Source: Lachnospiraceae bacterium (lineage in GTDB: Bacteria > Bacillota > Clostridia > Lachnospirales > Lachnospiraceae). From it: 33,799 nt of DNA. Every line of letters starts with the position of its first letter. The stretch's first letter is position 1. The DNA is taken from NCBI GenBank assembly GCA_017458765.1, contig JAFSZZ010000053.1, positions 1-33,799 on the forward strand, given 5' to 3'. Below the pieces are notes generated by a model. It was not told the origin of the DNA and made no database searches. It was given only the letters and a program-made list of their open reading frames with translations. Positions 759 to 33,430 of the stretch are shown here, piece after piece. Made by a program: the position numbers and the translations under genes.

Positions 759-2036
759 TTGACAAAAGTAAACAATGATGAGGAGGCTGTTATCGTTCTT
801 GATAACAATACCTCTTTACGCATGAGAGATATACAGTTATTATTGAACTGTGGTATGGGACCCGACAAGGTAGATGAAATGATTACAATGGCAAAACGAG
901 AATTCGTTATGTCCCATCATCCCAGAGATATCTTCCGATTGCCGCCTAGCAGCAGTTGGAAAAACGGATGTTACAAGACTTACGTCTATGCCGATTCAAA
1001 AAGAAAGGAGCTTACTGCCAACACAAAAGACAAACTGCTGGAAAAACTGTATGATTTCTATTATGAAGCAGAAAACAAAGCAAAAACTTTGGAACAGGTC
1101 TTCGAAATGTTCATGGATTATAAGCAAAACTGCCTGAACAGACGGGATAAGACGATAACTACCGATCGTAACCGCTTTAAGCACGTTCCCAAAGATTTGC
1201 TCGAAAAGAATATCAATGATATTACGGATGAAGATATCCGAAGATTCATTGTATCCAAGCTGCTTCCTGAGAATCCAAAACCTGAGTTTATTAAGAGGAT
1301 GATTCAGTCACTCGGAGCCGTTTTTGATTACGGTATCAAGAAGAAAATCTGTTTTGACAACCCTACCCGTTATATAGAAGCGCAGGATTACTATAAACAA
1401 TGTGACCAGGAGGTCAAAACGGATGAAGAAAAGGCTTTTTCAGCGGAGGAACTTGCCAGGATAACGGAGGATGCACAAAAGCATCTGGACAATCCCCGTG
1501 TGTTAATGTCCCTTCTTGCTAAAGAAACCGGCATGAGAGCCGGCGAATTGACAGCACTGCATGTCGAAGATATACAGGATGACTTCATCCATGTACACAG
1601 ACAGCAGATTAAGGTATCTGAAGGAAAACATAACAATCCGGTAGAGGTTGGTTATACAAAAGACGGGCGTATGCATCCGCACAACGGAAGGTTTATACCG
1701 ATAACGGAAGAGGCAAGACGTGTTATCGATATAGCTAAGGCTATTCCGGGAGATTCTCCGTATCTGTTTCATGAAAAAAACTGTTCGAAAATGATACCAA
1801 CGGACGGTTATATACAGAATCTGCGTAAGCGTTGTAGGCGGCTTGGATGTGTACCAACCAATAATCATGCCTTCAGAATGGCATTCAATTCAAGGCTTAT
1901 CGAATTGGGATTTTCTGCTTCAGACAGGGCATTGATCCTGGGACACGAGGTACAGACTAACGAGACGCACTATTCTTTGACGGACAAGAGGCGACTAAAT
2001 AATATAAAAGATCGCTTAATCAAAGAGGAGCCCTGA
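759..2036 (+). CDS. Tyrosine recombinase / integrase of a tRNA-Arg-targeted mobile element
   Basis: Site-specific recombinase that would integrate and excise the element through a covalent phosphotyrosine intermediate. The N-terminal third holds a core-binding domain (around residues 100-200, KTLEQVFEMFMDYKQNCL onwards). The catalytic domain shows the first Arg in KETGMRAGELTALH, the H-x-x-R box in HAFRMAFNSRL, LGHE as the second His box, and the nucleophilic Tyr in NETHYSLTDKRR. The start is probably the TTG at 759: AAGGAG at 746-751 lies 7 nt before it, whereas the upstream ATG at 708 lies inside the preceding terminator hairpin. From TTG the protein has about 425 residues, normal for ICE/phage integrases. 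The gene ends 14 bp from the 3' end of tRNA-Arg, and its stop codon sits in the loop of a hairpin that can terminate the tRNA transcript. Confidence 0.93.
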   Translation: MTKVNNDEEAVIVLDNNTSLRMRDIQLLLNCGMGPDKVDEMITMAKREFVMSHHPRDIFRLPPSSSWKNGCYKTYVYADSKRKELTANTKDKLLEKLYDFYYEAENKAKTLEQVFEMFMDYKQNCLNRRDKTITTDRNRFKHVPKDLLEKNINDITDEDIRRFIVSKLLPENPKPEFIKRMIQSLGAVFDYGIKKKICFDNPTRYIEAQDYYKQCDQEVKTDEEKAFSAEELARITEDAQKHLDNPRVLMSLLAKETGMRAGELTALHVEDIQDDFIHVHRQQIKVSEGKHNNPVEVGYTKDGRMHPHNGRFIPITEEARRVIDIAKAIPGDSPYLFHEKNCSKMIPTDGYIQNLRKRCRRLGCVPTNNHAFRMAFNSRLIELGFSASDRALILGHEVQTNETHYSLTDKRRLNNIKDRLIKEEP

Positions 2037-2046
2037 CCGGCTCCTC
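2018..2046 (-). terminator. Hairpin terminator for tRNA-Arg, overlapping the integrase stop
   Basis: On the minus strand GAGGAGCC, a 6-nt loop and GGCTCCTC form a perfect 8-bp stem (2025-2046), followed by TTTGATT. This lies directly downstream of the tRNA-Arg 3' end. The integrase TGA (2034-2036) begins in the loop. On the plus strand no T-run follows, so it serves mainly the tRNA. Confidence 0.7.
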
Positions 2047-2050
2047 AAAG

Positions 2051-2124
2051 CGTCCACGAGAGGATTCGAACCTCCGACCTTTCGCTTAGGAGGCGAACGC
2101 TCTATCCTGCTGAGCTACGTAGAC
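2051..2124 (-). tRNA. tRNA-Arg (anticodon CCT)
   Basis: On the minus strand the gene folds as a 74-nt tRNA. The acceptor arm is GTCTACG with CGTGGAC plus a G discriminator. The anticodon arm is TTCGC / GCGAA around the loop CTCCTAA, giving anticodon CCT, which reads AGG. The T arm GGAGGTTCGAATCCTC is standard. The 3' CCA is not encoded. The 3' half abuts the integrase gene, so this gene is the likely integration target of the mobile element on its left. Confidence 0.95.
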
Positions 2125-2149
2125 ATCCTATGCTGTAAGCACAATGAAG

Positions 2150-2178
2150 ATTATATATGCTTTTTATGAAAATATCAA
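2150..2178 (-). promoter_or_regulatory. Sigma-A-type promoter for tRNA-Arg
   Basis: On the minus strand a TTGATA -35 box (2173-2178), a 17-bp spacer and a perfect TATAAT -10 box (2150-2155) precede the tRNA 5' end at 2124. The predicted start near 2143 gives a short leader of about 20 nt. Confidence 0.8.
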
Positions 2179-2184
2179 GCACAA

Positions 2185-3084
2185 TCACTCAAAATTGACC
2201 TTTCCCTGCATCAGCACCGTTCCCTTAAAGCGGCGTCCTACCATAGGCTCTCCCAGAAGGTCTTTTTTATTGATGCTGATGTTCATCGCCATCCCGTTAT
2301 AGTTGATCGACAGTATGTATATCTCTTCTCCCGAATACGGATTTATCTCGATCGCATAATCCTCGATCTCTCCCATGATGGAATATAGATCGCATTCAAC
2401 CCCGTAAGGCATGAAATAAGATTCAACAAGAGTATACACGTCCTCATTACGTATCTTTTTTGATAACTGCGCGTAGGTATCTATATCATCAAGGGTAAGA
2501 CTTTCGATGGCATTTTCATCACCGTTTCGCGCTGCCATAAGAAGCTTATTGCGATTATTCGTATTCTTCTCGGTCTTAAGCTTTTCCTTCTTATCCTTCT
2601 TGATAGGCAGCATGACCATTCCGTTCATTGACATACCCGAAAAATTGACCGACATCTTCACATCCGAATCCGCTTCGGTGACTGCCATCTTCTTCATAAC
2701 ATCCACGGAATTCTGTATATCAAAAATAATGGTAACGCCTATCCTCGGATCATCGCATATACCCGCAAAATATTCCTGCGCCGCAAATCTCTCCATGCTG
2801 ACATATTCATTGGTACTGACGCTGTATGCCTTGCATATGGGGTAATAAAAATCCAAAGACAACTCGTTATCTTCATCAAATTCACCCCTTACGACAAGGC
2901 CTGTCGTCGGAGTGAAATATTTCACATATTCACATATAACACTGTTTCTGTCAGTTTCGATAAAATTCTTATCCGACGGTTCGGAGATCACCTTCTTGAT
3001 CAGTTCCATCAGATCCTTCTTTTTCTTAATATTTCCAAAACCGACCGCTCCAAGATATTGATGCAAACCGTTCTCCCTGATCAA
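2185..3084 (-). CDS. DUF3881-like protein of unknown function
   Basis: A 299-residue soluble protein with no signal peptide or membrane segment. It begins HQYLGAVGFGNIKKKKDLMELI, which I recall as typical of the DUF3881 family found mainly in Lachnospiraceae; this is from memory and could be wrong. A lysine/asparagine-rich linker (about residues 160-185, KKDKKEKLKTEKNTNNRNK) separates two mostly beta/alpha halves. The ATG overlaps the stop of the DUF4446-like gene by 4 bp (ATGA), so the two are probably translationally coupled in the parAB transcript. No catalytic motif is recognisable. It is the last gene of the minus-strand origin cluster before tRNA-Arg. Confidence 0.7.
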   Translation of the reverse strand: MIRENGLHQYLGAVGFGNIKKKKDLMELIKKVISEPSDKNFIETDRNSVICEYVKYFTPTTGLVVRGEFDEDNELSLDFYYPICKAYSVSTNEYVSMERFAAQEYFAGICDDPRIGVTIIFDIQNSVDVMKKMAVTEADSDVKMSVNFSGMSMNGMVMLPIKKDKKEKLKTEKNTNNRNKLLMAARNGDENAIESLTLDDIDTYAQLSKKIRNEDVYTLVESYFMPYGVECDLYSIMGEIEDYAIEINPYSGEEIYILSINYNGMAMNISINKKDLLGEPMVGRRFKGTVLMQGKVNFE

Positions 3085-3614
3085 TCGAATTTCGTACTGT
3101 CACCCTGAAGAGCCAGCATCAGGGCCTTTTTTTCTTCATCTCCAAGGGATATCGGTGACTCTCCGTCTATTATCTCCTTGGTATATACATAGCATCCGTC
3201 TGAACTGTGGACTGAGTTCAAGATAAACCCGGTCTTATTATCGTTAAGCAGTGCGATACTGAAGGAAAGCTTACCGCCCATTTCCTTGAACGCATCATAT
3301 TTAACGATTCCGACACGCTGATAGGTTTCCTTAAGATCATTGACGATGAGTGAGATATTATTACTGTTCCTCTCGGCAACTGTTTTAAGCCGGTCGATAT
3401 CGTCAAACAGTGCCATTATCTCCTCTTCCATGCTGGCCGCCTGGCGTCCCCGCATAAATACATCATAACTGGCTTTGAGTCTGCTGTATTTAAGCATCAA
3501 TGAAACAAGCATGATAAAAAGTATCAAAAATAATACAAATAGTACTGTAAACAAAACTCCGGGATCTGCATCCATCCCCAAAGCATTAAATAATTTACTG
3601 TTCATATTTATCAA
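3081..3614 (-). CDS. DUF4446-family membrane-anchored protein downstream of parB
   Basis: A 177-residue protein with one N-terminal membrane helix (LFTVLFVLFLILFIMLVSLML, about residues 21-41), a coiled-coil-prone segment (about residues 60-100), and a C-terminal domain with VGIVKYDAFKEMGGKLSFSIALLN. That last block is characteristic of DUF4446 proteins, which commonly sit beside parAB in clostridia. The TTG at 3614 overlaps the parB stop and has AAAGG 7 nt upstream; the ATG at 3605 is the alternative start but has no well-placed ribosome site. The function is unknown. The topology suggests a cytoplasmic domain tethered to the membrane, possibly linked to segregation or division, but that is inference from position only. 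Confidence 0.8.
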   Translation of the reverse strand: MINMNSKLFNALGMDADPGVLFTVLFVLFLILFIMLVSLMLKYSRLKASYDVFMRGRQAASMEEEIMALFDDIDRLKTVAERNSNNISLIVNDLKETYQRVGIVKYDAFKEMGGKLSFSIALLNDNKTGFILNSVHSSDGCYVYTKEIIDGESPISLGDEEKKALMLALQGDSTKFD

Positions 3615-4501
3615 TTTGCAGCCTTTACAAGAAGTTCTGCTATCCTTTCGAATTCGTTGGATGTATAATACTCTATCTCTATCTTTCCCTTGCTGTTATC
3701 CTTGGGTTTGATGCTTACTTTTGTTCCAAGAGCATTTTTGATCTTTTCTTCAAAATCTTTATATATGAATTCGTTCTCGAGCTTTTTGTCTCCCTTAACC
3801 TTCTTCTCTTTGGTCATTTCCTTGACTATCTTCTCGATGTCACGGACTGAAAGGTTCTCGTCAAAAACACGCTGGGCAACTGTGTACTGAAGCTCCTTAT
3901 CCTCGATCGCAAGAAGTGCTCTTGCATGTCCCTGCGTCAGCATTTCATTTATGAGCATCTGCTGTACTTCATCGCAGAGATTTAAAAGCCTCATTGAATT
4001 GGTGACCGTAGTCCTGCTCTTGCTTACGATCTCAGCCACTTCATCCTGCTTGAGATTGTATTTTTCGAGAAGCGTCTTATATGCCAGAGCTTCTTCTATA
4101 GGATTTAAGTCTTCTCTCTGGATATTCTCAATAAGAGAGATCTCTGCCTTTTCCTGCTCGGTAAATTCCCTTATACGTACAGGTACTTCCTTAAGACCTG
4201 CCTTCATCGCGGCCCGCCATCTGCGTTCACCGGCAACTATCTCATAATAGGTTCCCTGATCCTGGACTATGATCGGTTCGATTATCCCGTACTTCTTTAT
4301 AGAATCTGCGAGTTCCTGGAGTTTATCCTCATTAAAAGTCTTCCTCGGTTGATCCTTTCTGGGTTCGATCTTCGATATCTTTATCATCTTATCAGGTGAT
4401 GAAGCCTTCTTGTTTACATCTATCTCACTCTTAACATCAAGATCATCAAGCGGGATCAGGGCTCCCAATCCCTTCCCCAGGCCTTTTGCTTTTGCTGCCA
4501 T
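3611..4501 (-). CDS. parB: Chromosome partitioning protein ParB (Spo0J)
   Basis: CTP-dependent DNA clamp that loads at parS and organises the origin for segregation. The 296-residue protein starts KGLGKGLGALIPLDD, a typical ParA-stimulating N-terminus. The CTP-binding domain includes EIVAGERRWRAAMKAGL with the GERRWRA box (about residues 90-98) and ENIQREDLNPIEEA (about 125-138). The central helix-turn-helix (about 145-180, NLKQDEVAEIVSKSRTTVTNSMRLL) recognises parS. The C-terminal segment is the dimerisation domain. The ATG at 4501 is preceded by AAAGGAG. It lies 13 bp after parA and overlaps the next gene, so the four genes parA to the DUF3881-like gene look like one operon. Confidence 0.97.
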   Translation of the reverse strand: MAAKAKGLGKGLGALIPLDDLDVKSEIDVNKKASSPDKMIKISKIEPRKDQPRKTFNEDKLQELADSIKKYGIIEPIIVQDQGTYYEIVAGERRWRAAMKAGLKEVPVRIREFTEQEKAEISLIENIQREDLNPIEEALAYKTLLEKYNLKQDEVAEIVSKSRTTVTNSMRLLNLCDEVQQMLINEMLTQGHARALLAIEDKELQYTVAQRVFDENLSVRDIEKIVKEMTKEKKVKGDKKLENEFIYKDFEEKIKNALGTKVSIKPKDNSKGKIEIEYYTSNEFERIAELLVKAAN

Positions 4502-23947: not shown

Positions 23948-25489
23948 ATGATAAATATAGTAGAAATGCTCGAAAGAGCTGCTTCAAAATACGGTGAAAA
24001 GGTAGCATTTTCTGATCCCGATAAGGAGATAACGTTTTCAGGGCTTAGGGAAATGGCACTAAGAACCGCAGTATGTTTAGCCGATATGAAGGGCAGGGAC
24101 AGATTAAAGCCCGGATCGGCCGTTGCTTTTTACATGGAAAAGAGCGTAGATGCGCTCATCGTTATGTTTGCCGGGATGTATCTTGGGGATTTCTACAGTT
24201 TTATTGATATAAGACAGACGGCAAACAGGGCAGAGAGCATAATCGACGTACTTGAGCCTGAATTCATAATAACTGATGAAGCAAATAAGGATGCTCTTTG
24301 TGATCTTAAGCTTTCGGATCAAAATAGGAAGAACATCGTTCTGATCCCGCATCTTCTTAAGGAAGCGCGGGAAACTGCTATTGATCGGGAATTCCTTGAT
24401 AAGATAGGAAGGGATTTTTATGATAAGATGCCCTTATATGTGAACTTTACGAGCGGCAGTACCGGAGTCCCTAAGGGTGTGGTTGTCGGACATGCTTCCG
24501 TTATTGAGTTTATCAGTGAATTTACGAAAGTTTTTGACATAACTTCCGAGGATATACTTGCGAACCAGGCCCCGTTTGATTTTGATGTCTCCGTTAAGGA
24601 TATATACAGCGGCCTTTATACCGGGGCAAGGGTTGCTCTCATACCAAGGGAATATTTCTCAAATCCTACCGTACTTATGGATTATATCTCGGATAACAGG
24701 GCTACCGTGCTTATCTGGGCAGTATCGGCCATGTGCTTTGTATCGATAATGAACGGGCTTGAATACAGGAACCCCGAAACCGTCAGACAGGTGATGTTCT
24801 CGGGTGAACTTATGCCGGTGAAGCAGCTTAACAAATGGAAGAAATATCTTCCCGATGCAAGGTACGTTAATCTGTACGGACCGACTGAGATAACCTGTAA
24901 CTGTACCTATCATATACTTGACCGTGAATATGAAAAGGATGAGGTCATCCCGATAGGTATCCCTTTCAGGAATGAAAAGGTCTTTTTGCTTGATGAAGAT
25001 GATAAGGAGATAACGTTACCCGGTATAGAGGGTGAGATCTGTGTGAGCGGTTCCTGCCTTGCCCTCGGATACTATAAAGATGATAAAAAAACAGCTGTAA
25101 GTTTTGTGCAGAATCCATTAAATAACAGGTACGCAGAAACTATATACAGGACCGGAGATCTCGGTAAATACGATGATACAGGAGTGTTATTTTATACCTC
25201 GCGCAAGGATTTCCAGATAAAGCATATGGGCCAGAGGATAGAACTTTCGGATATCGATGTATCGGCCATGTCGGTGGACGGAGTGTCAAGGGCATGCAGC
25301 ATATATGATGACAAGCATAAGAAGATCATCCTTTTTTATACCGGCGATATAGAGAAGGATGAAATGGCGGAGAAAATACGGAAGAAGCTGCCGCCGTTCA
25401 TGCTCCCGTCAAAAACTGTGAAGCTTGATGATCTTCCGCTTAACAAAAATGGCAAGATTGACAGGAATGCGTTAATGCAGATAAAATAA
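23948..25489 (+). CDS. DltA-like amino acid:carrier protein ligase (AMP-forming adenylation domain)
   Basis: Stand-alone adenylation enzyme, 513 residues (DltA about 500). It should activate an amino acid with ATP and load it onto a carrier protein. Core motifs are intact: TSGSTGVPKG (168-177), FDVSVKD with Asp213, which in DltA/NRPS enzymes binds the alpha-amino group, YGPTE (310-314), RTGDLG (401-406), FQIKHMGQR (422-430) and the catalytic Lys503 in NKNGKIDR. The pocket region WAVSAMCFVSIMNG (257-270) does not follow the DltA pattern that places Cys near residue 269, so D-alanine should not be assumed. No promoter is visible in the 41 bp after the tRNA-Ser terminator. The decarboxylase and carrier genes follow on the same strand. 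TIGR03098-type exosortase-associated ligases are the other close comparison. Confidence 0.88.
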   Translation: MINIVEMLERAASKYGEKVAFSDPDKEITFSGLREMALRTAVCLADMKGRDRLKPGSAVAFYMEKSVDALIVMFAGMYLGDFYSFIDIRQTANRAESIIDVLEPEFIITDEANKDALCDLKLSDQNRKNIVLIPHLLKEARETAIDREFLDKIGRDFYDKMPLYVNFTSGSTGVPKGVVVGHASVIEFISEFTKVFDITSEDILANQAPFDFDVSVKDIYSGLYTGARVALIPREYFSNPTVLMDYISDNRATVLIWAVSAMCFVSIMNGLEYRNPETVRQVMFSGELMPVKQLNKWKKYLPDARYVNLYGPTEITCNCTYHILDREYEKDEVIPIGIPFRNEKVFLLDEDDKEITLPGIEGEICVSGSCLALGYYKDDKKTAVSFVQNPLNNRYAETIYRTGDLGKYDDTGVLFYTSRKDFQIKHMGQRIELSDIDVSAMSVDGVSRACSIYDDKHKKIILFYTGDIEKDEMAEKIRKKLPPFMLPSKTVKLDDLPLNKNGKIDRNALMQIK

Positions 25490-25504
25490 CACATCTGTAT
25501 ATAG

Positions 25505-25542
25505 ATTAAATAACACTACAAATAAAATATTAAATAACACTA
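25505..25542 (+). repeat. Tandem 14-bp direct repeat between ligase and decarboxylase genes
   Basis: ATTAAATAACACTA occurs at 25505-25518 and 25529-25542 (24-bp period). A 13-bp match, ATTAAATAACACT, recurs inside the decarboxylase gene at 26493-26505. The second copy ends 4 bp before the AAGGTG ribosome site of the decarboxylase. Confidence 0.85.
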
Positions 25543-25557
25543 TTGCAAGGTGAAGAA

Positions 25558-26754
25558 ATGCTGAAAAATACTGTATTACAGAGCATTGCCGAAGAATATG
25601 GTACACCCTCATTTCTCTTTGATGCGGATGAGCTGAGAGAGAGGGTTAAGATGATAAAGGACATCTTATGCGAGGGCGGAGAGAATATAGGACTCTGCTA
25701 TTCGATCAAGGCCAATCCTTTTCTGATCCCTTCGCTCATCGATGTTGTGGATATGCTGGAAGTATGTTCACCCGGTGAGTTGAAGATCTGTAAGTCATAT
25801 AAGGTTCCTGCAGAAAAGATAATATATTCGGGTGTCCATAAGGAAGAAGAAGATATAAGGGAAGCTGTCGGATATGGTGCTGCGATACTTACAGCAGAAT
25901 CCGTGAGGCATTATGAGCTTATAAAACTTGCTGCTTCCAATTTAGGTGCAAAGGTAAGGGTTATCCTCCGCCTTTCATCCAAAAGCCAGTTTGGCATGTC
26001 ACTTGAGGATATAGAGCAGATCCTAAAGACAAATAAGGATGACGAACATATTGAAATAGAAGGACTCCATTATTTTGCGGGCACCCAGAGAGTAAAGCTT
26101 AAGCATCAGAGGGAAGAGCTTAAAATGCTTAAGGATGTGTTTGATTCACTTCGTGAAAGATACGGCCTTCCTCTTTCATGGTTTGAATATGGTCCGGGCC
26201 TTTCCTACCCTTATTTTGAAGGGGATGATCATAACGATACCCTAAGACCTGTTAAGGAACTTGCCGGTGATCTTAGGGAGGCAGCAGGCGGATGCTCTCT
26301 TACGGTAGAGATGGGAAGGTTTATCGCCAGCAGCTGCGGATATTACCTTACCAAAGTCTGTGATGTGAAGAGATCGTATGATAATAATTGGGTGATCTTA
26401 GATGGCGGGATAAACCATGTCAATTACCTGGGACAGATGATGGGAATGAAGACACCTGTTATAATAACACTTCCGCACGATAGTGAAAAGGAATTAAATA
26501 ACACTTCTGAACAGCAGGAAACCCAGACTTTATGCGGCTCTCTGTGTACCACCAATGACGTTATCGTCAGAAGTTACAAGGGTAATGAACTAAATATCGG
26601 AGATGTACTTGTTTTCTGTAATATAGGAGCTTATTCCATAACCGAAGGGTTAAATCTTTTCCTCAGCAGGAATATGCCTGTTGTTTTGATAAGAAGGGAT
26701 GGTATAATCACTAAGGTAAGGGATGTTTTCGAAACATGGAAGCTTAATTCATAA
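25558..26754 (+). CDS. PLP-dependent decarboxylase, fold type III (DapDC/BtrK-like)
   Basis: Pyridoxal-phosphate enzyme of the alanine-racemase-fold decarboxylase group, 398 residues from the ATG at 25558 (AAGGTGA upstream; the TTG at 25543 is less likely). PLP-binding Lys51 lies in YSIKANPF. Also seen: EVCSPGELK (68-76), GLHYFAGTQ (169-177), VEMGRFIASSCGYY (250-263), DGGINHV (282-288), SLCTTND with the catalytic Cys330, and GAYSITEG (357-364). FAGTQ replaces the HIGSQ of lysine-pathway diaminopimelate decarboxylases and, with the LCTTND form, resembles the BtrK/exosortase-associated (TIGR03099) branch, which acts beside an AMP ligase and a carrier protein. So it is probably not LysA. A hydrophilic segment at 308-324 (ELNNTSEQQETQ) looks inserted. 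Its substrate is unknown. Confidence 0.88.
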   Translation: MLKNTVLQSIAEEYGTPSFLFDADELRERVKMIKDILCEGGENIGLCYSIKANPFLIPSLIDVVDMLEVCSPGELKICKSYKVPAEKIIYSGVHKEEEDIREAVGYGAAILTAESVRHYELIKLAASNLGAKVRVILRLSSKSQFGMSLEDIEQILKTNKDDEHIEIEGLHYFAGTQRVKLKHQREELKMLKDVFDSLRERYGLPLSWFEYGPGLSYPYFEGDDHNDTLRPVKELAGDLREAAGGCSLTVEMGRFIASSCGYYLTKVCDVKRSYDNNWVILDGGINHVNYLGQMMGMKTPVIITLPHDSEKELNNTSEQQETQTLCGSLCTTNDVIVRSYKGNELNIGDVLVFCNIGAYSITEGLNLFLSRNMPVVLIRRDGIITKVRDVFETWKLNS

Positions 26755-26816
26755 TATTAAAGATATCACCGGTTCATCCTTAAAGGTTGGAACGGGAATC
26801 TTGGAAAGAGGTATTA

Positions 26817-27038
26817 ATGGAAGAATTATTGGAATTACTCAAAGATGTAAGGGATGATGTTGATTTTGAGAACTGTACCGATCTTATCGACGGCAAGATA
26901 TTAAGTTCATTTGATATCATCCAGATCATAAGCGTTATTGATGAGGAATATGATGTTGCGGTTCCCGCGACCGAGATAATACCTGCCAATTTTAACAGTG
27001 CGCAGGCTATCTACGACATGATACAGAGGCTTAAGTAA
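26817..27038 (+). CDS. Acyl/aminoacyl carrier protein (phosphopantetheine-binding)
   Basis: A 73-residue four-helix carrier protein. DLIDGKILSSFDIIQII (22-38) is the phosphopantetheine site; Ser31 is the expected attachment residue. The usual Asp before it (DSL/DSF) is Ser30. DEEYDVAVPATEI and NFNSAQAIYDMI are typical of carrier proteins paired with stand-alone adenylation enzymes. The ATG at 26817 has AGAGG 5 nt upstream; the in-frame TTG at 26787 lacks a ribosome site. Located 62 bp after the decarboxylase and ending at a bidirectional terminator, it is the likely acceptor of the ligase's amino acid, comparable to DltC or BtrI. Confidence 0.9.
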   Translation: MEELLELLKDVRDDVDFENCTDLIDGKILSSFDIIQIISVIDEEYDVAVPATEIIPANFNSAQAIYDMIQRLK

Positions 27039-27058
27039 GGTTTTATTGTATGAAAAAT

Positions 27059-27090
27059 GCCGGTATAACGGCTGTCAGTCGGATACCGGC
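27059..27090. terminator. Shared bidirectional terminator of the convergent operons
   Basis: GCCGGTAT (27059-27066) pairs with ATACCGGC (27083-27090). On the minus strand TTTTT follows after one or two bases (27053-27057 in plus coordinates); on the plus strand the following bases are AGATGTTTT. The minus-strand stop codon of the SGNH gene (27075-27077) lies in the loop. Confidence 0.85.
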
Positions 27091-27989
27091 AGATGTTTTA
27101 TGAGTTCTTTTGTATAAACCCTTCGTCCTTCACCGGACATATGGCTCATATCCTCATAATAATCAGGATTACGGTTATCAAAATCCACATCGTGCGCAAG
27201 TATATACGGAGCGTCAAGATCGTCCATCATCTTAAGGAAGTAGTCATGATATTCCCGGTATTTGGGATCATCTTCCAATCTGTAATAATGAGGACATTCA
27301 AGGAAAATGAAATCCTGCCCGTCTCTCCTGCATTTTTCGATAACTTCCTTAACGGCGTCTGCCTGGGCTTCTATCAGTACCGAATCACTTATATCAAACT
27401 CTTCGTTTTCAAGGAATTCCTTACCCGAAGACGGAGTGTCGTCTGTCTTGGCTCCTTTGTAATACCTGGTCGAATAGAAGCGTTCAGTGACCGGATACGT
27501 TATAAGGTCATCCATTCCCGAAGTCACGAAATACTCATACATTATCGATAGATCGGTATTCCCGACACTTTTAAGCTTTTCCCAAAGAGCCTTTTTTCCT
27601 TCAAAGGACAGATCCCATATAACCCTTGAATCCGACAGTTTTACTTCTTCGGTAAGCATAAGGGGATCGAGCTCGAATACCATCAGCTTATGATCATTGT
27701 CAGATCTCTTTTTGATCTCATCGTATTGGATATCCGTAGCTGCATACTGGTTTCCTCCATATGAGATTATATATGCCCGGTTATCGAAGGCTTTATCCAG
27801 TTCGTGGATATCCAGGTTACTGCGGAATGTTGATGAGCCGATAAGCAGGATATCAAGGTCTCCTTCCATTATGGCGGCCCTTATTCCCCTGTTCCCGATC
27901 GGGATCTCACATGAATATACATTTTTAAAAGCCACGGCTGCACATATTATGATAAGAGCAGCTGACAGCGTGATCAGGATCTTTTTCAT
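27075..27989 (-). CDS. DltD/SGNH-hydrolase-like membrane-anchored protein
   Basis: A 304-residue protein with an N-terminal signal anchor (KKILITLSAALIIICAAVAF, residues 2-21) and an extracytoplasmic domain. LLIGSSTFRS (48-57) supplies a nucleophile-like Ser53 as in the GSSE motif of DltD, and YYEDMSHMSGEG (277-288) gives Asp280 and His283 in the D-x-x-H arrangement of SGNH enzymes. FELDPLML and FIFLECPHY fit the central strands. In Dlt and alginate acetylation systems such proteins work with an MBOAT to place an acyl group on a polymer outside the membrane. The MBOAT gene is directly upstream in the same orientation (104-bp gap without clear signals). The ATG has AAGGA upstream. Confidence 0.78.
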   Translation of the reverse strand: MKKILITLSAALIIICAAVAFKNVYSCEIPIGNRGIRAAIMEGDLDILLIGSSTFRSNLDIHELDKAFDNRAYIISYGGNQYAATDIQYDEIKKRSDNDHKLMVFELDPLMLTEEVKLSDSRVIWDLSFEGKKALWEKLKSVGNTDLSIMYEYFVTSGMDDLITYPVTERFYSTRYYKGAKTDDTPSSGKEFLENEEFDISDSVLIEAQADAVKEVIEKCRRDGQDFIFLECPHYYRLEDDPKYREYHDYFLKMMDDLDAPYILAHDVDFDNRNPDYYEDMSHMSGEGRRVYTKELIKHLPVSD

Positions 27990-28093
27990 TTTATCTATCC
28001 TTTTTTCTCTCTGTTTAGGCCTTAATGCTCCGGGTCAGTATCAAAAACAACTCAGAGATGCATTACTATCAATTTATCGTACTTAATACTCTC

Positions 28094-29521
28094 TTAAAAT
28101 GCCTGATACATGAAGTTTGACTGACCTGCCACACCGAAAAGGGACATCACGATCAGCATTCCGGCAGCATAAACATATCTGTGTTTTGTAAAAGCTTCCT
28201 CATTTTTCTCCTTACAGAGCTCAACTATGAACAGACCGGTAATAAGCACCGAAAGTATTATGACAGAAGCCGCAGCCTGGTTGCCGTTACCGAACGGTAC
28301 AAGAGAAGCCGTTATGGTGGAAGCATTTATCCTTGTCGTTGTGAAGATATTCTTATATATCGCAAACGCATCCTTAAGGCTGTGCGCCCTGAACATCACT
28401 TCACCGAACAGAACTATGATAAAGGTGCGAAGTGTCTGGAAGATCTTAATGAATACATTTTCATCGTTCCAGTGGATCGCGGTCCTGATTTTTTTCATAT
28501 ATGACATTGTGCATACGGAAAACAGCATGATGATCGCAAAATACACGCCCCAGCCGATATAGACGTCTTCCGCTCCGTGCCAGATGCCGGTCACTATCCA
28601 TACGAGTATAAGGGGAAGCACGGTACGCAGGTTTCCTTTTTTAGCCTTTGGGAATATCTTACCTAAGAACTTCGAGGCTTTACGGTTCCAGCCCGATGTC
28701 ACCGCGGGCATCATGAGATGCTCCTTGAACCATTCATTAAGGGAAATATGCCAGCGTCTCCAGTATTCCTGGATATTTCTTGAAAAATACGGGCGTTTGA
28801 AGTTCTCGGCCAATCTGATATCGAGCATCTTGGATATACCGCAGACGATATCCATGTATCCGGAAAAATCGGCATAAAGCTCGACAGCATAGAAGAAGAC
28901 CGCAATGATGAGAGTAAGCCCGCCGTAATTTTTCGGTGATGAAAATACGGTATCAACATAATAGGTAAGCCTGCCGGCGATCACCAGTTTCTTGAACAGT
29001 CCTTTGATCACCCTGTATCCGCCCGATCTTATATTATCCATCTTAAATTCGTGAGGTGAGATCAGCTGTTCCTTCATATCCTGATATGTTCCGATAGGCC
29101 CCTGTGTTATCTGAGGGAAATATGAGATAAACAGCGCGTAGTGAAAGAGATTCTGCTCAGGTTCTATCTTCTTTCCCATGCAGTCATGTGCATAACCGAG
29201 TGTCATGAAGGTGTAGAAGGATATCCCGAGAGGGACTATCAGAGAATGGACATTAAAGTAGACACTGTATCTGAAAACAATAAGTATGCCAAGATTGACT
29301 ATAAGGGTCATGATCCAGTGAGATCTTGACGGCTTTTTCATCAAGGCCCAGGTAGTCACAATGGAAACTGCGATAAACACTATATAAACCGGTCTTACCC
29401 ATGCATAGAATACGATACTGCCAATGAGCAGTACCTTCCACTGATGTTTGGGACTTATCCTGTAATAGGTAATGAGGAGTATTATTATGAAAATAAGAAA
29501 AGGAAATGAAATAAGGCTCAT
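28094..29521 (-). CDS. MBOAT-family O-acyltransferase (DltB/AlgI-like)
   Basis: Polytopic membrane enzyme, 475 residues and roughly 10-12 helices, that passes an acyl group across the membrane to an extracellular acceptor. Family marks: YFPQITQGPIG (134-144), YADFSGYMDIVCGISKML (216-233), EYWRRWHISLNEWF (252-265) with His258, and VTGIWHGAEDVYIGW (310-324) with the proposed catalytic His315. The C-terminus ends MYQAF, close to the aromatic tail of DltB-type proteins. The ATG has AAGGGA 7 nt upstream and a strong promoter at 29553-29582. Pairing with the SGNH gene and with a ligase, decarboxylase and carrier set opposite suggests transfer of an aminoacyl-type group, though ordinary acetylation cannot be excluded. 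Confidence 0.93.
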   Translation of the reverse strand: MSLISFPFLIFIIILLITYYRISPKHQWKVLLIGSIVFYAWVRPVYIVFIAVSIVTTWALMKKPSRSHWIMTLIVNLGILIVFRYSVYFNVHSLIVPLGISFYTFMTLGYAHDCMGKKIEPEQNLFHYALFISYFPQITQGPIGTYQDMKEQLISPHEFKMDNIRSGGYRVIKGLFKKLVIAGRLTYYVDTVFSSPKNYGGLTLIIAVFFYAVELYADFSGYMDIVCGISKMLDIRLAENFKRPYFSRNIQEYWRRWHISLNEWFKEHLMMPAVTSGWNRKASKFLGKIFPKAKKGNLRTVLPLILVWIVTGIWHGAEDVYIGWGVYFAIIMLFSVCTMSYMKKIRTAIHWNDENVFIKIFQTLRTFIIVLFGEVMFRAHSLKDAFAIYKNIFTTTRINASTITASLVPFGNGNQAAASVIILSVLITGLFIVELCKEKNEEAFTKHRYVYAAGMLIVMSLFGVAGQSNFMYQAF

Positions 29522-29552: not shown

Positions 29553-29582
29553 ATTATAGTGTTTTTTCCGTGTTTGTGTCAA
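29553..29582 (-). promoter_or_regulatory. Consensus promoter of the MBOAT-SGNH operon
   Basis: Minus-strand perfect TTGACA (29577-29582), 18-bp spacer, perfect TATAAT (29553-29558), giving a leader of about 25 nt. With a shared terminator at 27059-27090 it defines a two-gene transcript running against the replication fork. Confidence 0.88.
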
Positions 29583-29714: not shown

Positions 29715-32312
29715 ATGAAAAGATTCTTATATGAAAAAAGAAGGATACTGTGCCCCCTGTCCGCATTCATTATCCCTGTGGCTGTTATGGTGTTTATCAG
29801 TATCCTGTCGGGTTTTTATCCATTCGGGCATACTTCGATACTCATGGCGGATATGAGGTATCAGTTCGTCGATTATTTTGGGTACATGAAGCAGATATTC
29901 TTCTCAAATGATACCTATTTCTACAGTTTTTCCAAGACCTTTGGCGGAGATATGGCAGGACTTGCCGCATACTACTGCAACAATCCCTTCCTTGTTTTCC
30001 TGCTGTTTGTTCCGAATGACCTGCTTCCCGGAGGGATCCTCATCATGATGATCGTGATGCTCGGTCTCATCGGGCTTAGCTTTAATATCTTTCTTACAGA
30101 GATTTACGGGAGCCGATATACTACACTCATCTTTTCGACGGCTTATGCCTTTATGGGATATCTCATGGGATATTTCAACTGCGTACAGTATTTCTTCAAT
30201 ATAATGATACTACCGCTTGTCATGCTCGGTATATACCGTACGATCAAACAGGAAAGACCCAGTTACCTCTATATCATATCTCAGGCGCTCTCGATCTTCT
30301 CATGTTATTACATCGGATATATGATCTGTATCTTCTCCGTATGCTTCTTCATCTACATTTACTTTACGGAAAATACGGATATCAGGCATTTATTCGATAT
30401 CAAAGGAATAAAAAGACATATAAGACCGGTCATCGCATTTATATGGACATCAATTCTTGGTGTCTCATTATCTGCGGTAAGCCTGCTGTGTGCCGTCATT
30501 TCGCTAAGGGGACAGAGCAGCAGGAAACACATTCCTCTTTCCATAAAGGGTAATTTCAATATCACGGAAGTATTTTCCGGTATGTATTCAACGGCATTTA
30601 AGGGAAATGTTTCGGACGGTCTCCCGCTCATCTATTCCGGTGCGGTCGCCTTTATCTTTATCATATTTTTCTTCTTTGGCAGGACGGTGAGCAGGCGGGA
30701 GAAGATCATTTCCGGATCCGTATTTTTGTTCCTTATCCTCGGATTCTATGTTGATTTTCTCAATGTATTCTGGCATGGATTTTCATACCCGATAGGCTTC
30801 CCTTACAGGGAATCGTTCCTCTTTAGTTTCTGGGTGTTATTTTTAGCATATAAATGCTTTGTAAACATAGAAGATATCAGCAATAAGCAGATCATCATCA
30901 CAAGTCTCATATATGTTATTTATTCATTATACATGTGTGTTATTTTAAATGAGAATGTAGGGATCCGGCAGGTAATAATAACAGGTGTATATATAATTAT
31001 CTCATTTATATTGATCCTTCTTTACAGAAAGAAGGAACTGTTTGATCTGATCATGCCGGCATTCTTATTCCTCACCTTATTCGACGTATCTTACAATGCC
31101 TACATATCTCTTAATGCATATTTTCCGGATAAAGAAAATGACAGGGATATCACAATAGAAGCTTTTAAGGATTTCGTTGACGAAACATCTGCGATAGTGG
31201 GGCATCTTAAGGAAGAGGATAAGGATCTGTACCGTATAGAGAAGCTGTACAGGCGAAGCAACAATGACGCAATGCTAATAGGCTATAACGGATTATCGCA
31301 TTTTTCCTCCTGTGAGACTGAACTTGCGAGAAGGTTTATGGGAACCCTGGGCTTTAGGGATAACGATAACTGGGCTTTTTACGGTGAAGGCAGCACAACC
31401 TTTGCCGATTGTCTCATGGGGATGAGATACATGCTGTCCCAGTATGATGAAACGCCGAAACCATACAGCAATATATACAGTTATAATGACAAAAATGTAT
31501 TTTATAATCCGTATGCGCTTCCCCTCTGCTTTGTAATGGATGATACAGCCGTCTCCCTGGAACCGTCGGGATACGGTAAATTTTCCTATCAAAATGCACT
31601 TGCGAGAAGTTTTGGTTATGATGGAGATGATATTTACAGGCCCGTTGCGGGTGTTGAGGAAACACAGTACAATCTTGAAAAGAACGGCAATACATATACC
31701 GTTAAGGATAAAAATTCCGAAGCATACATTGAATACAGCTTCGAAAACCAAAGTGATGATTTCATGTTCATGTACTTTGATGCGGATGGTCTGCAGGATA
31801 CAAATATCGTGATAAACGGCCTTGAAAAGCAGCCGTATTTTACCTCTTACGGCTGGAGCATAAGGGAACTCGGATATTTTCCCGTCGGTGAAAAGGTTAA
31901 TGTCCGTATATATGCCTTGCAGGATGAGATCACGCTTAACGGATACGAATTCTGTTATGAAGACAAACAGGCGATAGCAGCATGGTATGAGGCGGCAACA
32001 CAGAACGAATGTAAGCTGATAAAGCAGACAAGCTCCCATCTTACGGGTACCGTCAATACAAAAGAACAGCAGGAACTTGTTTTTTCATTTCCTTATGATG
32101 AAGAATGGCGGGTGTATGTTGACGGACAGAGAGCCGAAAACAAAATGGCGGCAGCAGGTCTGTTATGTGTTGATATAGGCAAAGGTACTCATACGATAGA
32201 ACTTAAGTATATTCCGAAAGGTTTTGTTATCGGGCTCCCGGTAAGTATTATGGCCTTTTTGGTTTTACTGGTCATTCCTGTTATGCAAAAACGCAGAAAA
32301 AACGTGATGTGA
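29715..32312 (+). CDS. YfhO-family membrane glycosyltransferase
   Basis: Large GT-C-type membrane protein, 865 residues. About 13 N-terminal membrane helices run to about residue 465. SILMADMRYQFVDYFGYMKQ (about 41-60) holds the first-loop Asp and Gln-Tyr typical of YfhO; SYPIGFPYRESFLFSFW is another conserved loop. An extracytoplasmic domain follows (about 470-835), ending EEWRVYVDGQRAENKMAA and LKYIPKGF, then a last helix (about 838-858) and a basic tail. In Bacillus and Listeria, YfhO-type proteins transfer a sugar from an undecaprenyl-phosphate carrier to lipoteichoic acid, working with CsbB-type enzymes; such a partner follows here. GAGG lies 6 nt before the ATG. The acceptor in this organism is unknown. 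Confidence 0.9.
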   Translation: MKRFLYEKRRILCPLSAFIIPVAVMVFISILSGFYPFGHTSILMADMRYQFVDYFGYMKQIFFSNDTYFYSFSKTFGGDMAGLAAYYCNNPFLVFLLFVPNDLLPGGILIMMIVMLGLIGLSFNIFLTEIYGSRYTTLIFSTAYAFMGYLMGYFNCVQYFFNIMILPLVMLGIYRTIKQERPSYLYIISQALSIFSCYYIGYMICIFSVCFFIYIYFTENTDIRHLFDIKGIKRHIRPVIAFIWTSILGVSLSAVSLLCAVISLRGQSSRKHIPLSIKGNFNITEVFSGMYSTAFKGNVSDGLPLIYSGAVAFIFIIFFFFGRTVSRREKIISGSVFLFLILGFYVDFLNVFWHGFSYPIGFPYRESFLFSFWVLFLAYKCFVNIEDISNKQIIITSLIYVIYSLYMCVILNENVGIRQVIITGVYIIISFILILLYRKKELFDLIMPAFLFLTLFDVSYNAYISLNAYFPDKENDRDITIEAFKDFVDETSAIVGHLKEEDKDLYRIEKLYRRSNNDAMLIGYNGLSHFSSCETELARRFMGTLGFRDNDNWAFYGEGSTTFADCLMGMRYMLSQYDETPKPYSNIYSYNDKNVFYNPYALPLCFVMDDTAVSLEPSGYGKFSYQNALARSFGYDGDDIYRPVAGVEETQYNLEKNGNTYTVKDKNSEAYIEYSFENQSDDFMFMYFDADGLQDTNIVINGLEKQPYFTSYGWSIRELGYFPVGEKVNVRIYALQDEITLNGYEFCYEDKQAIAAWYEAATQNECKLIKQTSSHLTGTVNTKEQQELVFSFPYDEEWRVYVDGQRAENKMAAAGLLCVDIGKGTHTIELKYIPKGFVIGLPVSIMAFLVLLVIPVMQKRRKNVM

Positions 32313-32329
32313 CCGGTTTTAACCTGACA

Positions 32330-32465
32330 AATGTTTTATCTTTAAGACAGGAACCGAGGCAATAAACCGGTGAAAATCCGGACTGAGGCAAACCTTATGT
32401 CAGAGGGTTGTTGATTTTTATCCCGCATGCTATTATATGAAGGTGCTGGGATTAAATCTGGATCG
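32330..32465 (+). promoter_or_regulatory. Structured leader of unknown type before the GT2 gene
   Basis: The 173-bp gap after the YfhO-type gene contains CCGG-TGAAAAT-CCGG (32369-32383) flanked by two GAGGCAA copies, and downstream an imperfect stem ATCCCGCA / TGCTGGGAT (about 32421-32454). The GGTGAAAATCC core recalls cobalamin riboswitches, but the conserved GCCACTG box and the remaining helices are not evident. I record it as a structured leader candidate without an assigned class. Confidence 0.35.
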
Positions 32466-32485
32466 GATATGATGCGGAGGTTTAC

Positions 32486-33430
32486 ATGGAAAGTTACAAG
32501 TTATCTATAGTAGTTCCTGTATATAATGAGGAAAACGGTATAGAGCCGTTCCTTGAAAGAACCGAGAAAGTCGTGGATGAGCTCGGCTGTGATTACGAGA
32601 TCATTTTCAGTCTTGATCCTTCAACCGACAGGACATATGAGGTAATAAAGGAAAATATGAAGAGAAATCATCATATCAAACTTATTACCATGAGCCGCCG
32701 TTTCAGGCAGGCTGCCGCTACTATGGCAGGAGTGCTCAACTGTTCAGGAGATATCTGCGTGGTCATAGACGTAGATCTTCAGGATCCGCCAGAGGTTATC
32801 ACGGAACTTGTGGAGAAGTGGCAGGAAGGATATGATGTGGTCTATGCCCAGCGCATTGACAGGCAGGGTGAGACTAAGATAAGGAAGCTTATCGACCTTA
32901 CTGCTTACAGAGTGATCAATTTCCTGTCCGATGTGGAGATCCCTGTTGATACGGCAGATTTCAGGCTTATTAACAGGCGTGTCATAGAAGAGATAAGGAA
33001 AATGCCCGAGACCAACATGTTCTTCCGCGGAATGGTCTCATATGTAGGATTTAAGCAGACTGCGGTAAGATACCACAGGGAAGCAAGGGAAGCGGATGTG
33101 AGCAAGTACAACCGTCTCTGGGGTGAGTTCAGGATGGGTTTTCACGGTATATTCTGCTTTTCCAGCAAGCCGCTTGAATACGTGACCTTCCTTGGAGGGT
33201 TTATGACGGGCTTCGGTGTTCTGCTTTCATGTATCTGTTTCTTTGAGAAGGTCATACTCAGAAAGGCAAAGACGTTGGTGTCCGGCCTTACGGCACTTAT
33301 CTGGTTCATCGGAGGACTTAATGTATTCGTGTCCGGTCTTTTAGGTGAATATATAACCAGGATATATGATGATGTTAAGGGCAGACAGAGATTCATCATA
33401 GATGAGTTTGACGAGAATAAAAATGATTAG
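32486..33430 (+). CDS. Undecaprenyl-phosphate glycosyltransferase, GT2 family (CsbB/GtrB-like)
   Basis: Transfers a sugar from a nucleotide donor to undecaprenyl phosphate on the cytoplasmic face. The 314 residues begin LSIVVPVYNEENGIEPF, with the metal-binding DxD-type motif in VVIDVDLQDPPEVI (about residues 92-105) and QRIDRQGETKIRK (about 122-134), followed by two C-terminal membrane helices (about 232-255 and 269-290) and a cytoplasmic tail ending GRQRFIIDE. This topology and length match CsbB, GtrB and DpmI-type enzymes. The partner that uses the lipid-linked sugar outside is probably the YfhO-type protein encoded just upstream, as in the known CsbB-YfhO pair. GGAGG lies 7 nt before the ATG. 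The sugar cannot be read from the sequence. Confidence 0.93.
   Translation: MESYKLSIVVPVYNEENGIEPFLERTEKVVDELGCDYEIIFSLDPSTDRTYEVIKENMKRNHHIKLITMSRRFRQAAATMAGVLNCSGDICVVIDVDLQDPPEVITELVEKWQEGYDVVYAQRIDRQGETKIRKLIDLTAYRVINFLSDVEIPVDTADFRLINRRVIEEIRKMPETNMFFRGMVSYVGFKQTAVRYHREAREADVSKYNRLWGEFRMGFHGIFCFSSKPLEYVTFLGGFMTGFGVLLSCICFFEKVILRKAKTLVSGLTALIWFIGGLNVFVSGLLGEYITRIYDDVKGRQRFIIDEFDENKND

Follow-up and report, generated by a model that had tools for sequence, protein, structure and literature searches.

Why would a gene set that resembles a D-alanylation system carry an amino acid decarboxylase? The question is raised by a locus in the draft genome of a Lachnospiraceae bacterium (2.61 Mb, 198 contigs), where genes for an adenosine monophosphate (AMP)-forming ligase, a decarboxylase, a carrier protein, an MBOAT acyltransferase and an SGNH/DltD-like protein stand together in a stretch of 33,799 nucleotides (contig G000:C164, JAFSZZ010000053.1; hereafter the window). 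Amino acids esterified to Gram-positive surfaces determine their charge and how well the cells withstand cationic peptides of the host, and to our knowledge the familiar carrier systems for surface amino acid esters deliver D-alanine (Dlt) and glycine (the AlmE route) only. The window set is a variation on carrier-based surface acylation, known from the D-alanine system. We consider it slightly better than an even chance that the set is a carrier-fed surface acylation module that would charge its carrier with an acidic amino acid, decarboxylate it there and attach the product to a surface polymer as an ester. The original prediction, that the ligase, decarboxylase and carrier (the trio) feed an MBOAT/SGNH export pair which places a decarboxylated amino acid on a surface polymer, is strengthened on the architecture of the system, and the decarboxylated ester is a putative product.

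Open reading frame, Pfam and NCBIfam scans located the five genes at 23948–29521 (23.9–29.5 kb of the window) with no other gene between them, as had been claimed. Three lie on the forward strand: a DltA-like AMP-forming amino acid:carrier ligase of 513 amino acids (23948–25489; AMP-binding domain, 1.4e-60), a fold III pyridoxal phosphate (PLP) decarboxylase of 398 amino acids (25558–26754; PF02784 and PF00278, 1.9e-19) and a DltC-like acyl carrier protein of 73 amino acids (26817–27038). The likely start of the decarboxylase is the ATG at 25558, preceded by AAGGTGAAG, and that of the carrier the ATG at 26817; the longest frames begin with TTG at 25543 and 26787, respectively. The MBOAT acyltransferase (475 amino acids; 28094–29521; PF03062, 8.1e-17), followed by the SGNH/DltD-like protein (304 amino acids; 27075–27989), is encoded on the reverse strand. 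The two groups are convergent, and the five genes form two transcripts meeting at a strong hairpin (27049–27102; −23.5 kcal/mol, z −3.98, with 0 of 200 shuffles as good), probably a two-way terminator. A sigma-70-type promoter with a perfect match to TTGACA-18-TATAAT stands upstream of the MBOAT-SGNH unit (29553–29582, reverse strand).

The same five families are kept together in relatives. We searched a family sample of 150 genomes, one per genus code, with the decarboxylase, and matches at 1e-20 were found in 36, the window's own genome included and that of G108 being weak and LysA-like. After two weak LysA-like loci (L084 and L085) had been dropped, 35 decarboxylase loci were counted (L049–L083, several of them cut by contig ends), and these hold the ligase in 33 cases, the carrier in 32, the MBOAT in 26, an SGNH gene of either of two related clusters in 25 and all five genes in 22. 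A second collection comprised the best 80 of 586 ligase relatives from named genomes, selected by two short ligase patterns; they are close to the window's branch, come mostly from metagenome-assembled genomes (MAGs), and belong to Lachnospiraceae, Erysipelotrichaceae, Coriobacteria (Tractidigestivibacter, Atopobiaceae), Oscillospiraceae, Christensenella and others. The closest named genomes among these 80 are Lachnospiraceae MAGs, with 81% ligase identity. All four partners lie within 8 kb of the ligase in 49 of the 80 loci; among the 43 loci flanked on either side by 6 kb or more, all four partners are present in 31, MBOAT and SGNH in 40, and the decarboxylase alone is missing from 5.

The usual arrangement in relatives is a single operon on one strand, in the order ligase, decarboxylase, carrier, MBOAT and SGNH, and the window differs from it in the inversion of the last two genes. 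Where both genes are held, the ligase stands upstream of the decarboxylase on the same strand in 33/34 and 66/67 loci, and by longest-frame starts the median gap between them is −4 bases (in the window, about 68 bases to the likely ATG). Neighbour families outside the five each occur in 12 of the 116 loci at most. A chance neighbourhood is rejected by this conserved synteny, and the view that the trio and the MBOAT/SGNH pair belong together is borne out. In three loci (L113, L114 and L118) one trio is accompanied by two or more MBOAT-SGNH pairs, as if a single loading unit served several acceptors.

The decarboxylase proved nearer to BtrK of butirosin synthesis than to LysA, in line with the parallel drawn originally. 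Among PDB structures, the profile of its family matched BtrK best (213.8 bits), ahead of 6knh (178.7 bits) and the best DapDC (172.6 bits); 6knh/6knk is the next-nearest match after BtrK, and 6knk is identified as SbnH in PMC7857480. The catalytic Lys and Cys of fold III enzymes are present, together with a CT..D loop instead of CE..D: the window sequence is CTTND (26545–26559, forward strand), compared with CTPED in BtrK, CTPGD in VinO-like proteins and CESGD in the genome's own LysA. Residues K56, C335 and D339 are invariant in 22/22 aligned decarboxylases, and T336 is found in at least 90%. In the alignment, the trio decarboxylases are without a stretch before QFG that spans 14 columns in VinO and 11 in LysA. 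The window enzyme is ~30% identical to two VinO-like proteins (L215 and L216), whose genes are located on Streptomyces plasmids adjoining genes for a VinN-like ligase and methylaspartate mutase, and 21% identical to its own LysA. Identity as LysA was rejected, as the enzyme reaches 170 bits on TIGR01048 (cut-off 297.9) and a true LysA, at 383 bits, is encoded separately in the genome.

Trios of this kind have precedents in natural product synthesis. The VinN/VinO/VinL set of vicenistatin, like the FlvN set of fluvirucin, combines an AMP ligase, a PLP decarboxylase and a stand-alone carrier, as in the window; the vicenistatin trio feeds a polyketide synthase, and the BtrI/BtrJ/BtrK set, with which the window shares the decarboxylase subgroup, belongs to an antibiotic pathway. 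BtrJ, an ATP-grasp ligase of another fold, had been named as the parallel for the ligase and is a poorer one than VinN. According to PMC11284099, VinN attaches 3-methylaspartate, VinO follows once loading is complete, and decarboxylation takes place on the carrier; BtrK is described in PMC7857480 as acting on glutamyl-carrier. By analogy, the window decarboxylase would work on a carrier-bound amino acid. The original statement that no pathway with the full set is known stands in part: the trio has the precedent of VinN/VinO/VinL (PMC11284099), and no description of the five-gene system was found in the titles and abstract beginnings of the papers listed by the literature searches. The likeness to exosortase-associated trios is one of enzyme kind and is distant, with the ligase at 179.1 bits on TIGR03098 (cut-off 592.35), the decarboxylase at 173.5 bits on TIGR03099 (cut-off 478.45) and no exosortase (PF09721) found in the window's genome. 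In one relative (L049, 6713–10057), a decarboxylase frame of 1114 amino acids runs on, by look, through a low-complexity region and a membrane segment to an end resembling a transglutaminase, either a fusion or an assembly artefact.

The substrate pocket of the ligase may point to an acidic amino acid. Its ten-residue code is DVKSMSLCNK, in which Asp occupies the amine-binding position, 235 in GrsA numbering, and Lys position 239 (D213 to K217, 24584–24598, forward strand). Of the 101 ligase rows from decarboxylase-bearing loci, three repeat a genome; D213 and K217 are each found in 99 rows, the remaining two having Ile and Arg, and position 239 is Lys (99) or Arg (2) in every row; Met occupies it in 7/8 DltA rows. 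The natural reading of Lys or Arg at this position is that of a partner for a substrate carboxylate. The two exceptional ligases (L061 and L063), with Ile in place of the pocket Asp and Arg at 239, appear to favour carboxylate recognition over α-amine recognition in their branch. The constancy of C317 and N318 in the 80 named-genome loci is partly by construction, as one selection pattern contained the TCNC pocket stretch.

The carrier and the two export proteins supply the remaining parts of an acyl transfer chain. Although DltC is the first PDB match of the carrier family profile, the protein scores below the cut-offs of NF003464 (4.7e-5) and of DltC TIGR01688 (17 bits against 52) and has no Pfam match at 0.01; its presumed phosphopantetheine attachment Ser (26907–26909, forward strand) is invariant in 26/26 aligned carriers. 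The MBOAT protein, whose family profile matches DltB only in the PDB, reaches 152.2 bits on DltB TIGR04091 (cut-off 375). Its motif GxWHG (GIWHG, with H315 at 28577–28579, reverse strand) has a His invariant in 21/21 sequences, and its C-terminus ends in the acyl-shuttle hexapeptide FMYQAF with Tyr472 (28097–28114, reverse strand). Among the 99 ligase-linked MBOATs, 74 have the strict F.Y..F tail (the window protein is one of the 74), compared with 0.6% of shuffled sequences and 0/3 true DltBs of relatives; a looser tail Tyr pattern, drawn up after inspecting the strict-pattern failures, covers 97/99, the misses being L110 (a cut contig) and L130 (an odd frame).

The SGNH/DltD-like protein, which by look has a hydrophobic N-terminus, gave no Pfam or NCBIfam match of its own at 0.01. 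Its family alignment matched DltD (E 0.008) and AlgX (0.23) in the PDB. The presumed nucleophile is the GxS serine S53 (27831–27833, reverse strand), with a C-terminal His, H283, at 27141–27143; G51, S53 and H283 are invariant in 17/17 aligned rows, and the Asp before the C-terminal His varies in position among family members, a literal DxxH being present in the window protein. Identity is 77% to two near relatives and 12–17% to typical operon SGNH proteins, to which the relation is weak (24.6 bits, 1.6e-6; 39.9 bits in a second profile scan). Two invariant residues, weak GDSL-lipase matches of relatives and a weak PDB profile match hint at an SGNH fold. The pair thus carries the motifs of polymer acyltransferases: the MBOAT His, the FxYxxF Tyr, and an SGNH partner with a GxS Ser and a C-terminal His. 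A fused FxYxxF tail and an SGNH partner are likewise found in PatA/PatB and AlgI-type O-acetyltransferases. According to PMC12148441, the DltB type is fed by a carrier and uses a separate shuttle peptide, DltX, whereas PatA-like and AlgI types are fed by acyl-coenzyme A (CoA) without a carrier and have the shuttle peptide fused; the window operon type has a ligase and a carrier. The window system therefore looks like a hybrid of a fused PatA-type MBOAT tail with a Dlt-type ligase and carrier, and of the originally proposed Dlt-like MBOAT/SGNH pair, the pair itself is present and the tail is unlike that of DltB.

These features can be combined in a mechanism. The ligase would adenylate an acidic amino acid, most likely Asp or Glu through the side-chain carboxylate, and load it on the carrier, and the decarboxylase would then strip the α-carboxylate on the carrier in the manner of BtrK and VinO, leaving an ω-aminoacyl thioester, β-alanyl from Asp or 4-aminobutyryl from Glu. 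The MBOAT protein would move the acyl group across the membrane onto the Tyr of its own FMYQAF tail, from which the SGNH serine would accept it and esterify a hydroxyl of an extracellular polymer. This Tyr-then-Ser relay is borrowed from DltB/DltX/DltD and PatA/PatB and, for the window, is read from the motifs; the acceptor, a teichoic-type polymer or other glycan, is a guess. Like D-alanylation, this would give the polymer a free amine, but one without an adjacent α-carbonyl. If the carrier is the donor, the system would break the rule that MBOATs with fused shuttle tails have no carrier.

Several observations weigh against on-carrier decarboxylation. The ligase retains both D213 and a full-length β13–β14 loop (YGPTEITCN, 24875–24901, forward strand; compared by alignment to the VinN-like ligases from L215 and L216), features that normally accompany activation of the α-carboxylate. 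In VinN this loop is shortened and carries K330 and R331, which the window ligase, with its full-length ITCN loop, is missing; in PMC11253843, VinN is said to take its substrate as a β-amino acid with a shortened pocket loop. An α-thioester would be unable to lose its α-carboxylate, which would forbid the proposed route, and in view of these features side-chain-loaded Asp or Glu is held at moderate confidence only. Lys at position 239 is also common in relatives free of the decarboxylase: the DAK pocket class has it and is without a decarboxylase in 17/18 loci, and Lys239 was rejected as a marker of the decarboxylase on this ground.

The distribution of the decarboxylase adds further difficulties. 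It does not adjoin the ligase in 13 of the 80 named-genome loci, one of which (L133) breaks off immediately behind the ligase, and the presence or absence of the enzyme switches 7 times along the ligase tree; four genomes of the family sample have the window-type ligase class without a decarboxylase. Two of the 13 genomes hold a decarboxylase elsewhere, in operons of its own with a carrier and MBOAT; in the other 11, many of them draft MAGs, the best match had an E value of 8.9e-20 at 27% identity, while 3/3 control genomes matched below 1e-90. A supply of free β-alanine by PanD was considered as a substitute and gave no contrast, PanD being found in 3/13 genomes without the decarboxylase (one a weak two-piece match) and 3/16 with it. 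Among 77 ligases, those with DVK..CN or IAR codes adjoin a decarboxylase in 32/41 cases and those with other codes in 1/36 (by genome, 33/37 vs 1/26; Fisher p about 2e-12); the count leaves out the weak LysA-like matches of G108 and the second of G126 as well as the ligase fragment of G016, includes some loci cut by contig ends (L285, L287 and L293), and joins the IAR class to the decarboxylase group after inspection of the data. We downgraded this contingency because the pocket class arose only once on the tree, leaving the link between pocket and decarboxylase without independent replicates; decarboxylase linkage itself shifts 8 times, and the pocket almost always stays the same when it does. 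Finally, 34 loci with other codes hold the carrier, MBOAT and SGNH genes in 22 cases and the decarboxylase in none.

One alternative is loading through the α-carboxylate, with the MBOAT and SGNH proteins transferring an undecarboxylated amino acid and the decarboxylase doing another job, such as the supply or removal of a free amino acid or amine. The pocket Asp, the full-length loop, the operons that share the pocket and lack the decarboxylase, and the decarboxylase-free wider family all fit this alternative, and we regard it as unlikely, though the likeliest of the alternatives. It is opposed by the nearness of the decarboxylase to the carrier-acting BtrK, by the CT..D motif and by the touching or overlapping of ligase and decarboxylase genes in most operons, and the PanD comparison (3/13 vs 3/16) does not explain the genomes without the decarboxylase.

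One branch of a wider ligase-carrier-MBOAT-SGNH family has thus added the decarboxylase, the other-code loci showing these partners and no decarboxylase. Since the decarboxylase is missing from some lineages and PanD is no substitute there, the module can probably run without decarboxylation in them. Loading and transfer would then form the core of the module, with decarboxylation as an adjustment of the group's charge. The ligase family was found in 64 of the 150 family genomes (1e-70, searched with a paralog from the window's genome), compared with 7/150 for DltA at 1e-120, and may do the job of Dlt in many gut commensals. The paralog (G000:C188; L086, 1359–2864) is 45% identical to the window ligase and has the code DAISIGIGVK. 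The same genome holds a carrier, MBOAT and SGNH gene at 982–3806 of another locus (L203, G000:C196), which with the paralogous ligase make up a second system free of the decarboxylase; a search with the decarboxylase found no second copy in this genome.

It is therefore conceivable, at slightly less than even chances, that gut Lachnospiraceae and relatives harbor a diversified family of carrier-fed PatA-type MBOAT-SGNH operons, whose several pocket codes would place different activated acids on surface polymers between bacteria and even within one genome with two systems, and in which one branch would add on-carrier decarboxylation to give ω-amino esters, the first decarboxylative surface acylation. 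Our confidence in both this proposal and the preferred explanation of the window is tempered because the fused tail is common to all MBOATs of the genome and Lys239 is not specific to the decarboxylase branch. The pocket codes make the substrates directly testable.

For the export pair, too, some findings count against a carrier-fed role. Nine MBOAT matches were obtained in the window's 2.6-Mb genome, and 8/8 of the others carry the F.Y..F tail, because of which the fused tail marks the PatA-like type and not the use of a carrier. The pair is transcribed separately from the trio, and the operon profiles give higher scores to the C196 pair, whose MBOAT has its own carrier (577 and 205 bits), than to the MBOAT and SGNH proteins of the window (396 and 40 bits). 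In a quick tree of 110 MBOAT sequences, with SH-aLRT support only and a long-branch warning for DltB, 93 of the 99 ligase-linked MBOATs form one group together with C196 and C158 from the window's genome, apart from the three DltBs, which are far, and from the six other MBOATs of that genome; the six ligase-linked MBOATs outside the group comprise one each from L108, L110, L112 and L156 and two from L113. The window MBOAT nevertheless falls within this main group, in a subgroup of 8 rows (support 100), every member of which adjoins such a ligase.

A second alternative would separate the two halves of the locus. The trio would supply a precursor for another pathway, that of a natural product or of an N-acylated capsule, and the MBOAT and SGNH proteins would be an ordinary acetyl-CoA-fed O-acetyltransferase whose genes lie beside it by chance. 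The convergent genes of the window, the use of acyl-CoA attributed to fused-tail MBOATs in PMC12148441, and three loci (L139, L172 and L176) that hold the trio with no MBOAT in the stretch are all consistent with this separation. We nevertheless find it improbable, as all five genes occur together in 22/35 family loci and 49/80 others, no outside family recurs in more than 12/116 loci, and two members of the window MBOAT's subgroup, L103 and L104, are co-directional operons. By look, L139 and L172 stand among sugar-cluster-like genes (a dehydrogenase, a DegT-like aminotransferase, an epimerase-like gene and a second decarboxylase-like gene).

A third alternative retains the carrier and changes the chemistry: Asp would be loaded through its α-carboxylate and the PLP enzyme would remove the β-carboxylate, yielding alanyl-carrier and thus D- or L-alanylation by another road. 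The code DVKS[ML]SLCN with its Lys could fit α-Asp binding, and we take it to share 4–5 of 9 positions with the serine code. We know of no fold III enzyme for β-decarboxylation, which counts against this route. In addition, the relatives treated in PMC7857480 carry out α-decarboxylation, and we rate the alanyl-carrier route as quite improbable.

The comparison with Dlt itself (DltA, DltB, DltC, DltD and DltX) is close in plan and distant in detail. Dlt likewise comprises an AMP ligase, a small carrier, an MBOAT and an SGNH protein, likely with an acyl-Tyr and then acyl-Ser relay; it differs in its ligase pocket and its separate DltX, whereas the window has the decarboxylase and an FxYxxF tail fused to the MBOAT. 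Every scored part of the window is below the Dlt family cut-offs, the ligase reaching 246.5 bits on DltA TIGR01734 (cut-off 559.85), and its pocket, DVKSMSLCN, departs from the D-Ala pocket DLMSLCTVA (the ten-residue code being DLMSLCTVAK in 6/8 DltA rows). A check on whether true dlt is absent or separate had been proposed originally; in the window's genome, DltA was not found at 1e-120, DltX (PF12459) gave no match, and DltD (PF04914) gave one, at another locus (C172), below its cut-off at 20.4 of 22.7 bits. DltA is also rare in the family sample, 4 of its 7 matches being over the cut-off, and a true DltA, where present, is encoded at a locus of its own together with DltB; two genomes (G082 and G090) have both DltA and the decarboxylase operon. 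A plain D-alanylation system in divergent form, suggested by DltA, DltC, DltB and DltD among the best profile names, is highly improbable in view of these scores, the change of pocket Met to Lys, the lack of DltX, the added decarboxylase and the separate place of true DltA.

The surroundings of the locus include several other features. It is near the replication origin, with dnaA, dnaN, an SMC/RecF-type gene, gyrB and gyrA at 13.5–22.1 kb, and a tRNA-Ser gene lies directly upstream of the ligase gene. Directly past the MBOAT gene, at 29715–33430, a gene for a YfhO-like membrane protein (1.2e-166) is joined by one for a PgfS-like family 2 glycosyltransferase, a combination reminiscent of pairs that glycosylate surface polymers or proteins. 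A phage-type integrase gene adjoins a tRNA-Arg(CCT) gene (2050–2124) at the window's left end (708–2124), possibly an integrated element. Elsewhere in the genome (G000:C153), an open frame of 5648 amino acids with several adenylation domains encodes a large nonribosomal peptide synthetase-like protein. In relatives, genes of response-regulator and sensor-kinase type, by look, directly follow the operon at L067, L071, L077 and L079, and the response-regulator group adjoins 12 of the 116 loci.

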